Below, piece by piece: positions 21,558 to 38,629 of a stretch of 50,395 bases of DNA. Both the position numbers and the translations under genes were made by a program. Source of the DNA: an uncultured Lachnospiraceae bacterium (lineage in GTDB: Bacteria; Bacillota; Clostridia; Lachnospirales; Lachnospiraceae); contig CADAKQ010000017.1 in assembly GCA_902788555.1 (NCBI GenBank), positions 1 through 50,395 on the forward strand, given 5' to 3'. Under the pieces are notes generated by a model. It was not told where the DNA came from. It saw only the letters and a list, made by a program, of their open reading frames with translations, and searched no databases. Position 1 is the stretch's first letter, and every line of letters begins with the position of its first letter.

Positions 21558-23159
21558 CTACCTTTTTATTAATTTATATACAATCATGCCAAATATTGTA
21601 TCAAGTGATAAAAGCATCAGCAAAGCTATATTTATAGGCTTTGAGTTATCACCTGTTTGTGTTTCAGTAGATGTACTTTTACTTTTTGCTACATCAGTAT
21701 CAGTATCCGTAGTTGATGTTACTACCGTTACTTCCTCTGTTGTTAATTCCTCTGTTGTGACAGTCTCTGTTGTCTCTTTTTCGGTAGTAATCTCTGTTGT
21801 TTCTTTTTCGGTAGTAGTCTCTGTTGTCTCTTCTTGGGTAGTGGTTTCCGTTGTTACTTCTTCCTTGTTTTCTTCCTCTTTTGTTTCCGTAACTTCTTCC
21901 AATTCATTATATACAATTATAATTCCATCCTCAAGCTTCGCATCTTCAGAGGTTACTTCTCCGCTTTCACTTACCGAAAAACGTATATCACTTTTTAGCT
22001 TGCTATATCCTTCAGGAGCAATAGTCTCGCGGATAATATAGTCATTATCAGCAGCAAGCTTTGCCTTAATCACATGACAAGTGATATCACCATTTTCATC
22101 AACATCCGAACCACTTACCCATGTTTCAACAGGCGCGGCATCGTTAATAACATTTCCTTCATCATCTATATCTGATGCGTTATATATTTCCAAGGTCGCT
22201 CCTTTTAACTCATCGGACTTTCCTATCTCCCTCTTACTTATGCTGACACTGGTTTCCTTATTGGCTATACTTATGGTATTTGTAGAAGCATCAAGTGTTA
22301 CGCCTTCATATTCATCATTAAGAATCACTCTGTTATTTTCATCAATATAAAATGATATCTTTGAAGTAATGGATATATATCCATCCGGCGCCTCAAGTTC
22401 TATTAAAGTATAGTCAGGACCGTAAGAAAGATTATAAAGCGTATAACTTGACTTAGTTAAATCATCAAACCTTCCTTCTGAAGCGTTCTTATTATTACCA
22501 TCACGAAGTTCAAACTTAGCTCCGGGTACCGGATTGCCTTCTGAATCGGTTTTCACAATTGTAACAAATGTTCTGTCATTTTTTATCTTAATAACTCCAC
22601 CCGTCAAAACCTCAGCATCATCCTGACCGGATAATAAGGTTATACCATTTTCTAAGCTTATACTAAATTTTATATCCTCAGATACAGGTATATATCCGGC
22701 AGGAGCGGATTCCTCTATGGTATACTCCTTGCCTATATCAAGATTATTAATTGTAAGATAGTTTTCTCCATCTGATTCCCACCCATCTACAATTTCATTA
22801 CCATCCTCATCTTCAACATAAAAAACCGCACCCTCTACAAGATTACCGGCATCATCGACCTTAGCTAACTTTACATTTAAAAATACTGCGTCACATATAA
22901 TATTCTGGTTACCATCATCAATTACATAAATCCATGCATCAAAGCCCATAGCATAATAATCCGGCAATGTATCGATATAATCAAAAAGCGGCTTATAAAA
23001 CATATTCCACAATGAAGCATCATCATTTACATAACTGTGTGCCGGATCATTGGATGTATACCATTTTTTCTGCTGTGTAACATATTCTGTCGGATCAAAA
23101 TCAGGAAATGCTTGTACTGCATTCAATCTAACATCTTCAGGATAAATACCCATCCACAT
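21558..23159 (-). CDS. C-terminal part of a thioester/SpaA surface adhesin (cell-wall anchored)
   Basis: 533 aa. It opens in the middle of a thioester domain (GIYPEDVR, then VTQQKKWYT, like the TQxxxW motif). Three SpaA/CnaB isopeptide domains follow, each ending in the Glu signature: EESAPAGY, IELEAPDGY, RETIAPEGY. Then comes a Thr/Glu repeat stalk, a sortase-like QTGDNSKP, a membrane helix and a basic KLIKR tail. There is no ribosome site before its first ATG. It is in the same frame as the upstream 202-aa part, separated by a single TAG at 23214-23216 and 18 codons. So it is almost certainly the rest of one gene broken by a nonsense codon. Confidence 0.8.
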   Translation of the reverse strand: MWMGIYPEDVRLNAVQAFPDFDPTEYVTQQKKWYTSNDPAHSYVNDDASLWNMFYKPLFDYIDTLPDYYAMGFDAWIYVIDDGNQNIICDAVFLNVKLAKVDDAGNLVEGAVFYVEDEDGNEIVDGWESDGENYLTINNLDIGKEYTIEESAPAGYIPVSEDIKFSISLENGITLLSGQDDAEVLTGGVIKIKNDRTFVTIVKTDSEGNPVPGAKFELRDGNNKNASEGRFDDLTKSSYTLYNLSYGPDYTLIELEAPDGYISITSKISFYIDENNRVILNDEYEGVTLDASTNTISIANKETSVSISKREIGKSDELKGATLEIYNASDIDDEGNVINDAAPVETWVSGSDVDENGDITCHVIKAKLAADNDYIIRETIAPEGYSKLKSDIRFSVSESGEVTSEDAKLEDGIIIVYNELEEVTETKEEENKEEVTTETTTQEETTETTTEKETTEITTEKETTETVTTEELTTEEVTVVTSTTDTDTDVAKSKSTSTETQTGDNSKPINIALLMLLSLDTIFGMIVYKLIKR

Positions 23160-36708: not shown

Positions 36709-37167
36709 TTAAAACACTATCCTTTGTGCGAAGTAATCCTTGTCCTTTTTACTATCCATGAATGATGCCATATATATAGGTAAATAACTAATCTTCCCCT
36801 CTTTTGATACATTACAATTTGCAAATACAAATCCCTCATCAACACCATATTCTTTATTATTCAAACAATTATTTAGTGCTGAATGTTTTGTATAATCCTT
36901 ACCGCTCTTAACTTCAATAGGTGCTAATTTGCCGTTATATTCTATAACAAAATCCAACTCTCCCTGCCGTTTTGAATTATAATAATAAACATTAAAGCCC
37001 TTACTTATAAGCTCTTCAGCAACAGCATTTTCATATATTCCTCCACCATTTAAATTATTATCATTATTTAATATCTTCGTTTTAGTATTCATTCCATAAA
37101 CTGATGTTAGCATTCCAACATCAGAAAGATACAATTTAATTTTTAAACTTTTTGTCAAAAATTCCAT
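36709..37167 (-). pseudogene. C-terminal fragment of a DUF4143-type ATPase
   Basis: 152 aa. Family members are about 400-470 aa with an N-terminal AAA ATPase; here only the DUF4143/PD-(D/E)xK end remains: IKLYLSDVGML, GGIYENAVAEEL, then GELDFVIEYNGK with PIEVKSGK (D73, E86, K88). No Walker A lies upstream. The first codons are formed by the third copy of a 32-bp tandem repeat, so the 5' end has been lost or rearranged. It may still be transcribed, but a functional ATPase cannot result. Confidence 0.72.
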
Positions 37168-37228
37168 CAAAAAAATCTCTTTTTTGTCAAAAATTCCGCC
37201 TAAAAACTCTCTTTTTTGTCAAAAATTC
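37153..37228. repeat. 32-bp tandem repeat with TTGACA in each copy
   Basis: TGTCAAAAATTC begins at 37153, 37185 and 37217 (period 32). On the minus strand each copy reads GAATTTTTGACAAAAAA, which carries a perfect -35 hexamer; no matching -10 is evident. The third copy encodes the first residues of the DUF4143 fragment. Confidence 0.7.
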
Positions 37229-37231
37229 TTT

Positions 37232-38305
37232 TTAAAACAATATATCCCTAAAACACAAAATCGGTTCATTCTTTTCAAAGTCCCAGCTATGGTAGGAATC
37301 TCCGTGGCATCTGTCCTTTTCACCGCAGTCCTGACATTTGGTGCATCTATCGCTTAGGTCGATTCTGAATTCCTTGAATTCATTTTCCCAAACATCCTTA
37401 AATCTGTCCTTTAATATATTTCCCTGCACGAGCTCCGGTCTTCTCTCGATATCAAGGCACGCTATTATATCTCCGCTTGCGGTTATGCTTGCAACGTAAA
37501 GACCTGCAGAGCATATGAAGTACCAATCCCTTATCTCACGCTCGTACTCGGTGCCCAGATAGTGACTGCAGCCGTATTCCACAGGCTCCCCGGCCATTCT
37601 CTTATTTCTGATAAACTCCACCAGATATCGATAATCCTCCTTGGTTAAGATAAGCTCAGGATGAAGCTTCGCCCTTCCCATAGGCTCGATATTTATTACT
37701 CTCCATGAATCGATATCCATCTTGTCAAATATTTCGTAAAGCGCATCCAACTCGCCTATATTCTGATGTGTAACCACGGTCGTAACCTGAATGGCTTTGA
37801 ACTTGCCGACATTTATAAGATTTTGGATCCCCTCCATAGCCTTCCTGTATCCGCCCGGAGTCTGCCTGAAAGCATCATGCGTTTCCTCCAAACCGTCTAT
37901 GCTGACGGATATGGTACTCATACCGGTCTCGTATAGCTTACGAGCAATTTCAGGCGTAATCAATATACCGTTACTCGTCATTCCCCACTTAAATCCAAGC
38001 ATATGAGCATAGCCCATAATCTCAAAAAAGTCTTTTCGAAGAAGTGGTTCTCCACCGGTTATGCAGAGCATATAACCCTTTGTACCGAAGTCTTCCTTTA
38101 CCTCATCCAAAAATGCTTTGTACTGTTCTAAGGTTAATTCTTCGCTTTTAACATCTCCGCAGGAGCTTCCGCAATGAAGACAACGCTCATTACACCGAAG
38201 TGTAAGCTCCAGAAACAGATTTTTGAGCAACGGCTTTTTCTTCAGTTCTTCCCTGTACTCGGCAAGCTGCTCCATATGCTTATACTTTGTATCAACATTT
38301 AACAT
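37232..38305 (-). CDS. Radical SAM/SPASM enzyme paired with a lipoprotein
   Basis: 357 aa. The SAM cluster motif is TLRCNERCLHC (C38, C42, C45), followed by ITGGEPLLRKD and SISVSIDGLEETHD. The C-terminal SPASM region has cysteines in FICSAGLYVAS, ACLDIE and a dense CTKCQDCGEKDRC, enough for auxiliary 4Fe-4S clusters. From memory it resembles the rSAM_w_lipo type (TIGR04133) that accompanies small lipoproteins. ATG 38305 has GGGG seven bases upstream. The lipoprotein gene ends 51 bases upstream on the same strand, so that protein is the likely substrate: probably a peptide-backbone or side-chain modification (inference). Confidence 0.85.
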   Translation of the reverse strand: MLNVDTKYKHMEQLAEYREELKKKPLLKNLFLELTLRCNERCLHCGSSCGDVKSEELTLEQYKAFLDEVKEDFGTKGYMLCITGGEPLLRKDFFEIMGYAHMLGFKWGMTSNGILITPEIARKLYETGMSTISVSIDGLEETHDAFRQTPGGYRKAMEGIQNLINVGKFKAIQVTTVVTHQNIGELDALYEIFDKMDIDSWRVINIEPMGRAKLHPELILTKEDYRYLVEFIRNKRMAGEPVEYGCSHYLGTEYEREIRDWYFICSAGLYVASITASGDIIACLDIERRPELVQGNILKDRFKDVWENEFKEFRIDLSDRCTKCQDCGEKDRCHGDSYHSWDFEKNEPILCFRDILF

Positions 38306-38356
38306 GCAAATTACCCCATACAATCCTTAGGTATTTTTTCAGCTTGATTAATCGCA

Positions 38357-38629
38357 TTACTCAAAATCCTCCGGCGGTCCGTACACGTCCTCCGGTACCT
38401 CATCCTCCGGATTATACTTCTCGGTAGTTGTCTCCTCCGTAGTTGTATCATCAAAGTCTGTAGGAGGACCATACACCGTCTCCGGCTCCGTTATCTCGAT
38501 GTCCTCGGTTGTGGTCGGCGCAGCCGTCGTGTTATCATCTTTATGCGATCTGCAGCTTGTAAATCCCGCCAGAAATACTCCACTGGTCAAAGCTGCCGCT
38601 ATCAGTTTTGTTTTGGTTGTTTTTTTCAT
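38357..38629 (-). CDS. Small lipoprotein with two VYGPP motifs, candidate radical SAM substrate
   Basis: 90 aa. A signal peptide with lipobox ends at Cys26 (AGFTSC). The mature part is Thr/Glu/Asp-rich and low in complexity. Two near-identical motifs, VYGPPTDF at 52-59 and VYGPPEDF at 82-89, are 30 residues apart; the second ends the protein. Nothing else in it looks structured, so these motifs are probably the functional sites. GGGAAGG lies about 6 bases before ATG. It sits between the AICAR transformylase gene (27 bases) and the radical SAM gene (51 bases). Exported and membrane-anchored; modification would have to occur before export. Confidence 0.8.
   Translation of the reverse strand: MKKTTKTKLIAAALTSGVFLAGFTSCRSHKDDNTTAAPTTTEDIEITEPETVYGPPTDFDDTTTEETTTEKYNPEDEVPEDVYGPPEDFE

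Follow-up and report, generated by a model that had tools for sequence, protein, structure and literature searches.

A putative lipoprotein gene and a radical S-adenosylmethionine (SAM) enzyme gene lie side by side on the minus strand of a contig from an uncultured Lachnospiraceae bacterium (CADAKQ010000017.1, assembly GCA_902788555.1), of which positions 1 to 50,395 (the window, 50,395 nucleotides in all) were analyzed. The upstream open reading frame (ORF; 38357..38629) encodes a 90-residue candidate substrate lipoprotein without a meaningful match in Pfam or NCBIfam. Its signal peptide ends in a lipobox-like FTSC (Cys26) and is followed by a Thr/Glu-rich linker and two VYGPP motifs, namely VYGPPTDF at residues 52–59 (38453..38476; YGPP codons 38463–38473) and VYGPPEDF at residues 82–89 (38363..38386; YGPP codons 38373–38383). 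A 51-nucleotide intergenic spacer (38306..38356), with a GGGG ribosome-binding-like stretch, precedes the ATG at 38305 of the second gene (37232..38305), which encodes a 357-residue enzyme with Pfam Radical_SAM (8.8e-23) and SPASM (1.4e-8) domains; an alternative TTG start at 38323 would give 363 residues. The original prediction had described a lipoprotein with two VYGPP motifs directly upstream of a radical SAM/SPASM enzyme, and both ORFs were confirmed in strand and place. Its residue numbers for the motifs hold as well, but the second motif, said to lie at the C-terminus, ends one residue short of it.

Chance or low sequence complexity as the origin of the motifs was rejected on shuffling, codon, and conservation data. 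When the mature lipoprotein was shuffled 200,000 times, at least one YGPP arose in 244 sequences and two in none. The two window motifs are written in different synonymous codons, which argues for selection at the protein level, and the YGPP codons are synonymously diverse across the 354 motifs found in the 138 partner proteins described below. Among seven close orthologues, identity reaches 97% in the VYGPP core, 85% in the eight-residue motif, and 97% in the signal peptide, compared with 58% in the linker; the motif is conserved relative to the linker, as had been anticipated. In the window's own genome (G000, 88.7% complete), just two further sites have degenerate YGPP codons, both in ATPase-like genes (LYGPPGTGKTT and LYGPPGLGKTT), where we take them to be Walker-A loops. 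A genome-wide modification of many unlinked proteins accordingly finds little support. In eight other genomes, YGPP codon clusters lie mainly at one place each, with scattered single sites read in part.

The coupling of the enzyme to YGPP proteins is well supported. Among 145 genomes of relatives, the enzyme was found at E up to 1e-40 in 17 (own included), 14 of which have a YGPP ORF beside it. A fifteenth, G029, has its locus cut by a contig end; the motif is retained at the break, and a further contig end holds the bulk of the gene. The remaining two, G065 and G077, have no clear YGPP protein at the enzyme. The G077 homologue (L016, 1501–2514) lacks CxxxCxxC as well as a YGPP neighbor and is therefore counted in favor of the coupling; its neighbors look like polysaccharide or cell-surface genes. 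In G065, a zinc-ribbon protein with IYGPKPEK (L021, 3993–4397) is encoded right after the intact enzyme homologue that has no YGPP partner. The VYGPP[E/D] codon pattern occurs in 11/17 enzyme-bearing genomes and in 0/128 without the enzyme (Fisher p 1.2e-12, for genomes that are kin and so not independent trials), while a control with the pattern reversed matched at 11 scattered places in 10 genomes.

A wider survey covered 93 loci, the best 80 of 392 confirmed contig loci plus 13 from a class search; because the best 80 were used, it is biased to near relatives, mostly Ruminococcus/Oscillospiraceae. A same-strand YGPP protein is present in 90/93, usually directly upstream of the enzyme, and in the 91 loci where strand was scored, no YGPP protein was encoded on the other strand. 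Loci L105 and L108 were missed by the regular expression for the enzyme but contain YGPP ORFs; they count among the 90 and stand outside the 91. L029–L034 look like the same genomes as L002–L007, class-search loci may overlap others, and this set excludes L109, which is the window itself. The three exceptions carry variant YG proteins downstream of the enzyme: a lipoprotein with LYGVPSYM (L123), MYGSPELG at a contig end (L124), and a weak AYGIDIDE (L125). The co-occurrence of enzyme and YGPP protein had been put forward from the window, and it held in 15/17 genomes and 90/93 loci.

Some YGPP genes lie away from the enzyme: one encodes a zinc-ribbon protein with two YGPP sites (L187, 1561–2217), another a second YGPP lipoprotein on a different contig of R. 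flavefaciens FD-1 (L190, 1867–2196), and a third, 4.4 kb away from the enzyme gene, a leaderless YGPP peptide about 47 residues long (L188, 4800–4961). The enzyme may therefore act in trans. Viral contigs yielded one related locus (L193) and 20 weak matches to a Nostoc enzyme, which were not used; there was no match to a Phocaeicola enzyme among viral contigs, nor to the Firmicute L122 enzyme among phages.

The partner proteins carry from one to six YGPP copies each (136 proteins counted). There is one YGPP protein in 63/90 loci, two to four in 26/90, and eight in one, where eight tandem YGPP genes precede a single enzyme (L069, 50–4979). YG is seen 471 times in the 138 partners, compared with about 65 expected from composition. 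Val occupies position −1 relative to Tyr at 66% of YG sites, with L, A, E, D, I, and T also tolerated; position +2 is Pro in 86% and position +3 in 78%, percentages that are inflated because the proteins were chosen for YGPP, and where +2 is not Pro it is A, T, N, D, V, or S. A Tyr or Phe-x-Pro element lies exactly eight residues ahead of YGPP in 112/354 motifs, motif 2 of the window included (as Y-x-P; YNPEDEVPEDVYGPP), and is perhaps part of the site that the enzyme recognizes. Cys stands at −2, beyond residue 45 and so away from the lipobox, in 29/354 motifs.

By a rough N-terminal classification, 71 of the 138 are lipoprotein-like, 56 have a signal or membrane segment without a lipobox, and 11 have neither, the last class including mis-started or truncated ORFs. 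YGPP proteins of the same operon without an evident signal peptide are encoded at L098 (4132–4326), L101 (4114–4335), and L104 (3522–3905), and some targets may remain cytosolic. The repeated, distal placement of the motif, to which the original prediction had drawn attention, holds in the window but is no peculiarity of it, given partners with one to six copies, secreted non-lipoproteins, and some proteins with no signal peptide. A type I dockerin was found in 54/138 partners (Pfam, E up to 0.001; in this 138-row alignment the window lipoprotein takes the place of fragment L112). A custom dockerin hidden Markov model seeded with three Pfam-positive proteins recovered 51/138 partners in 34/90 loci, of which 28 are titled Ruminococcus, 6 Oscillospiraceae, and 0 Lachnospiraceae; no dockerin was found in partners of the window's own kin. 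Judging by these domains, many Ruminococcus YGPP-dockerin proteins could dock on cellulosomal scaffoldins.

The enzyme displays CxxxCxxC (C38, C42, C45) and SPASM-region cysteines at C246, C265, C283, C324, C327, C333, and C351, all invariant in 32/32 aligned rows (the window and 31 of the 80 loci). The second Cys of the usual SPASM CX3C pattern is Ser or Ala in window-type enzymes. An AlphaFold model (mean predicted local distance difference test score 84.0) matches SkfB, SuiB, and CteB best among folds in the PDB (from 1.2e-16), with EpeE weaker (7.2e-10). Only a helix lies ahead of the radical SAM core in the model, so the enzyme has no domain like the recognition element (RRE) of ribosomally synthesized and post-translationally modified peptides (RiPPs). 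It has no signal peptide and is therefore taken to be cytosolic. Separately, G000 also encodes a SCIFF-type radical SAM maturase (contig C33, 9106–10458; L243) that scores 772.2 bits, above the family cut-off.

The best NCBIfam profile for the enzyme is TIGR04133 (rSAM_w_lipo), at 273.8 bits over residues 12–352 against a cut-off of 425, followed by AhbD (157.4 bits), MftC (153.2), NirJ2 (142.4), and TIGR04053 (128.1). Filing the enzyme under TIGR04133, or under the nif11-class peptide radical SAM maturase 3 family TIGR04103, which we take to be that of PlpX, was rejected by score. The runner-up profiles of the window enzyme and of L119, L094, and L017 are heme or mycofactocin families. Among the Firmicute enzymes that were scored, L122 reaches the top value for TIGR04133; its second-best family is TIGR04103, and the best three profiles for L236 and L197 are TIGR04103, TIGR03913, and TIGR04133. 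The Nostoc enzyme used here carries the annotation of a nif11-class maturase 3 and reaches 853.1 bits with TIGR04103.

In a tree of 45 enzymes (supports given as ultrafast bootstrap/SH-like approximate likelihood ratio test, SH-aLRT), 19 window-type rows form one clade with the TIGR04133 loci (100/99), which comprise two annotated loci and one unannotated Phocaeicola locus. Within it, the window's 15-row group, a group of TIGR04133 with L122, and L119–L121 are separate, in a poorly supported branching order (71/18). The original prediction had likened the enzyme to rSAM_w_lipo; kinship is borne out by the shared clade and by an adjacent lipoprotein with a YGxP motif in both systems, whereas membership is not. 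A larger clade unites the window-type/TIGR04133 enzymes with PlpX, GDL, and Firmicute PlpX-like enzymes (100/95). MftC (mycofactocin) and AhbD/NirJ (heme), which are likewise SPASM-type radical SAM enzymes and give the next-best profile scores, lie outside it and act on different substrates. The clade was retained (SH-aLRT 99.7), with SCIFF outside, when SCIFF rows and one TIGR04053 row were added. The trees do not include L016; two Rhizobium rows were dropped from the extended tree, which does not contain the TIGR04053 rows L238 and L240, and among six loci retrieved by the AhbD profile, L201 alone scores above its cut-off.

On visual comparison, the partners across this clade have hardly anything in common except Tyr-Gly, frequently with a Pro further on. 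TIGR04133-type partners contain CEYGSPHANF, CYGMPENYY, and CEYGTPSADY; the Nostoc nif11 precursor of the PlpX family ends in ALYGLPPELF and a stop; and Firmicute NHLP-type precursors have AYGVPI or AYGIAR after the leader (the second leader recognized by likeness to the first). An ORF with.YG.P lies within 1.5 kb in 23/30 rows of the clade and in 1/15 other rows, several of which had flanks under 1 kb; the single outer match is taken for chance. Most of the 19 lipoprotein-type rows in this count were picked from loci known to hold YGPP, and without them the count is 6/11, one of the six being a phosphotransferase that perhaps matches by chance. That protein, encoded beside a PlpX-like enzyme (L229, 1706–2677), has FYGLPPG near its N-terminus.

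In Parabacteroides, Phocaeicola, Treponema saccharophilum, and the Firmicute L122, the lipoprotein beside the TIGR04133-type enzyme carries YGxP at the lipobox or immediately behind it, and the partners of L122, L194, and L195 reach the TIGR04134 cut-off. The window lipoprotein gave no match to TIGR04134 (lipo_with_rSAM) at E up to 1 (cut-off 39.8 bits). Whereas in the TIGR04134 type a single motif precedes a folded domain (one resembling carboxypeptidase regulatory domains in L122), the partners described here look disordered, have up to six motifs, and include the dockerin proteins. With PlpX spliceases (TIGR04103) and GDL/DUF1843 maturases (TIGR03913), the system has in common the larger clade and X-Tyr-Gly sites, the window having two VYG. 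Unlike PlpX, it has lipoprotein or secreted targets with up to six sites each, and no nif11 or NHLP leader family matched the window lipoprotein. PlpXY, the characterized splicease of this group, is reported to excise tyramine at MYG and LYG sites, with a loss of 135.0757 Da, and to form the ketoamide independently of the leader; tags on the PlpA2 core read PIRP(L/G)YGLPI (PMC10533398), and YGLP is common to these and the Nostoc LYGLPPELF.

These findings make the YG motif the likely modified site, as had been suggested, and we propose that the two genes are a substrate–enzyme cassette. No RiPP leader would be needed for the enzyme to recognize X-Tyr-Gly-(Pro)-Pro, and its cytosolic location would oblige it to act before export, on the freshly synthesized and still disordered lipoprotein, presumably at all motif copies. 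At each site tyramine would be excised to give X-ketoamide-Gly-Pro-Pro (−135.0757 Da per motif), and the product would be a surface lipoprotein with one ketoamide per motif, two in this case (−270.151 Da in all). Tyramine excision leads among the chemistries because PlpXY excises at X-Tyr-Gly independently of a leader and because the clade shares Tyr-Gly. On this sequence comparison, we give leaderless, multisite Tyr-Gly modification of the lipoprotein, most likely by tyramine excision leaving a ketoamide, about an even chance, and no higher because most PlpXY tags in FtsZ failed.

A number of points weigh against this proposal. PlpXY is described as context-sensitive, with most FtsZ tag constructs, LYGLPI ones included, unmodified (PMC10533398), and PlpX was characterized together with the RRE protein PlpY, its family being given as IPR026482 (PMC11002830). 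An RRE partner was not evident among the neighboring ORFs, which were viewed without individual scans in a search confined to the locus. PlpX is not known to require Pro-Pro after YG. Against a TIGR04103 cut-off of 725, the window enzyme reaches only 114.9 bits, less than with AhbD, MftC, NirJ2, and TIGR04053 and level with the profile of the cross-linking enzyme WgkB (115.7 bits). WgkB and StsB rows are absent from the trees, as is PqqE, and one clade may hold several chemistries. YG occurs in only 4/8 DUF1843 precursors beside GDL enzymes, L197 has no YG precursor within 1.5 kb, and G065 (L017) is without a clear YGPP protein. The chemistry itself is inferred from sequence and tree.

Among other chemistries, the enzyme might link the ring of Tyr with a side chain close by, for example that of Pro at +2 in a three-residue cyclophane, with a loss of 2 Da per Y-G-P. 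The WgkB score fits such a cross-link, as do the +2 residues, all of which have a β-carbon, and PqqE and the enzyme for the RRR peptide are reported to cross-link Tyr (PMC8326336). The PqqE and PapB profiles score lower, however (82.8 and 80.4 bits), SCIFF rows lie outside the clade, and Gly is conserved as well as Tyr, as expected of an X-Tyr-Gly splicease but not required for a Tyr-X-X cyclophane; we consider a cross-link possible but unlikely. Quite improbable is MftC-like chemistry at Val-Tyr, that is, oxidation or desaturation of Tyr or of Val-Tyr without tyramine loss. The frequent Val before Tyr, the GVY ending of MftA, and the third-best score of the mycofactocin profile point that way, but MftC rows fall outside the clade and residue −1 is tolerant, as in X-Tyr-Gly. 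The Tyr decarboxylated by MftC is, moreover, described as C-terminal in MftA (PMC8326336), whereas the sites here are internal.

YGPP could also be a binding tag only, with the enzyme modifying something else or some other protein binding the YGPP proteins through the tag. The modified site is itself so far inferred, and the Tyr or Phe-x-Pro element suggests that recognition elements may exist; yet the window-type, TIGR04133-type, nif11, and NHLP-type partners have, on visual comparison, little besides YG in common, and we consider this very improbable. Epimerization or another mass-neutral or small change at Val, Pro, or Gly beside Tyr, the former among the chemistries originally suggested for YGPP, is the least probable of these. 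Radical SAM epimerases share the fold, EpeE being among the PDB matches, but that match is the weaker one, Gly is achiral, and the motif is centered on Tyr-Gly; the tree and the shared X-Tyr-Gly motif favor splicease-like tyramine excision instead. A thioether, also suggested originally, was rejected for the window, as there is no Cys in or near the motifs and SCIFF rows lie outside the clade, but it is conceivable in the minority of partners with Cys at −2.

Elsewhere in the window, three direct repeats of a tttttgtcaaaaattc unit (37150–37235) lie between the enzyme end and a truncated-looking ORF (36709–37170), presumably the C-terminal part of a DUF4143-type ATPase. A large surface protein encoded at 21558–23159 appears to combine repeated SpaA-type domains, a Thr/Glu-rich stalk, and a C-terminal anchor.

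Searches of the open PubMed Central literature returned no paper combining YGPP, radical SAM, and lipoprotein or combining dockerin, radical SAM, and R. flavefaciens, and no match for TIGR04133/TIGR04134 and similar names; dockerin with radical SAM gave none relevant by title, and YGPP alone none among the matches listed. Tyramine splicing has been described in a peptide cluster of cyanobacterial origin and is called widespread in one review, which also describes the ketoamide group as a moiety used for protease inhibition (PMC11002830). A dockerin-bearing serpin of R. flavefaciens is thought to shield the cellulosome from proteolysis (PMC5301203). Taken together, ketoamide protease inhibition and the dockerin-serpin suggest a bolder and rather unlikely reading, in which rumen and gut Firmicutes would write ketoamide arrays, one ketoamide per YGPP, into lipoproteins and dockerin proteins as covalent-reversible protease traps displayed by the cellulosome as well as the cell surface. 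The reaction of ketoamides with the nucleophiles of proteases is reversible, and the traps, with P1 mostly Val, would by analogy be a chemical counterpart of the R. flavefaciens dockerin-borne serpins. Anchoring by reaction with amines, or signaling, would fit just as well.

If tyramine excision is correct, tyramine splicing would extend, independently of a RiPP leader, to full-size proteins on the surface of gut and rumen bacteria, with several sites in each. TIGR04133 and TIGR04134, two families with names but as yet no explanation, would thereby gain a function, and some of the R. flavefaciens dockerin proteins without an assigned function would be accounted for, 118 proteins with unknown regions having been counted in strain FD-1 (PMC2930009). 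In addition, ketoamide proteins could be made by means of a brief tag that is genetically encoded, and perhaps with a single enzyme as the tool.
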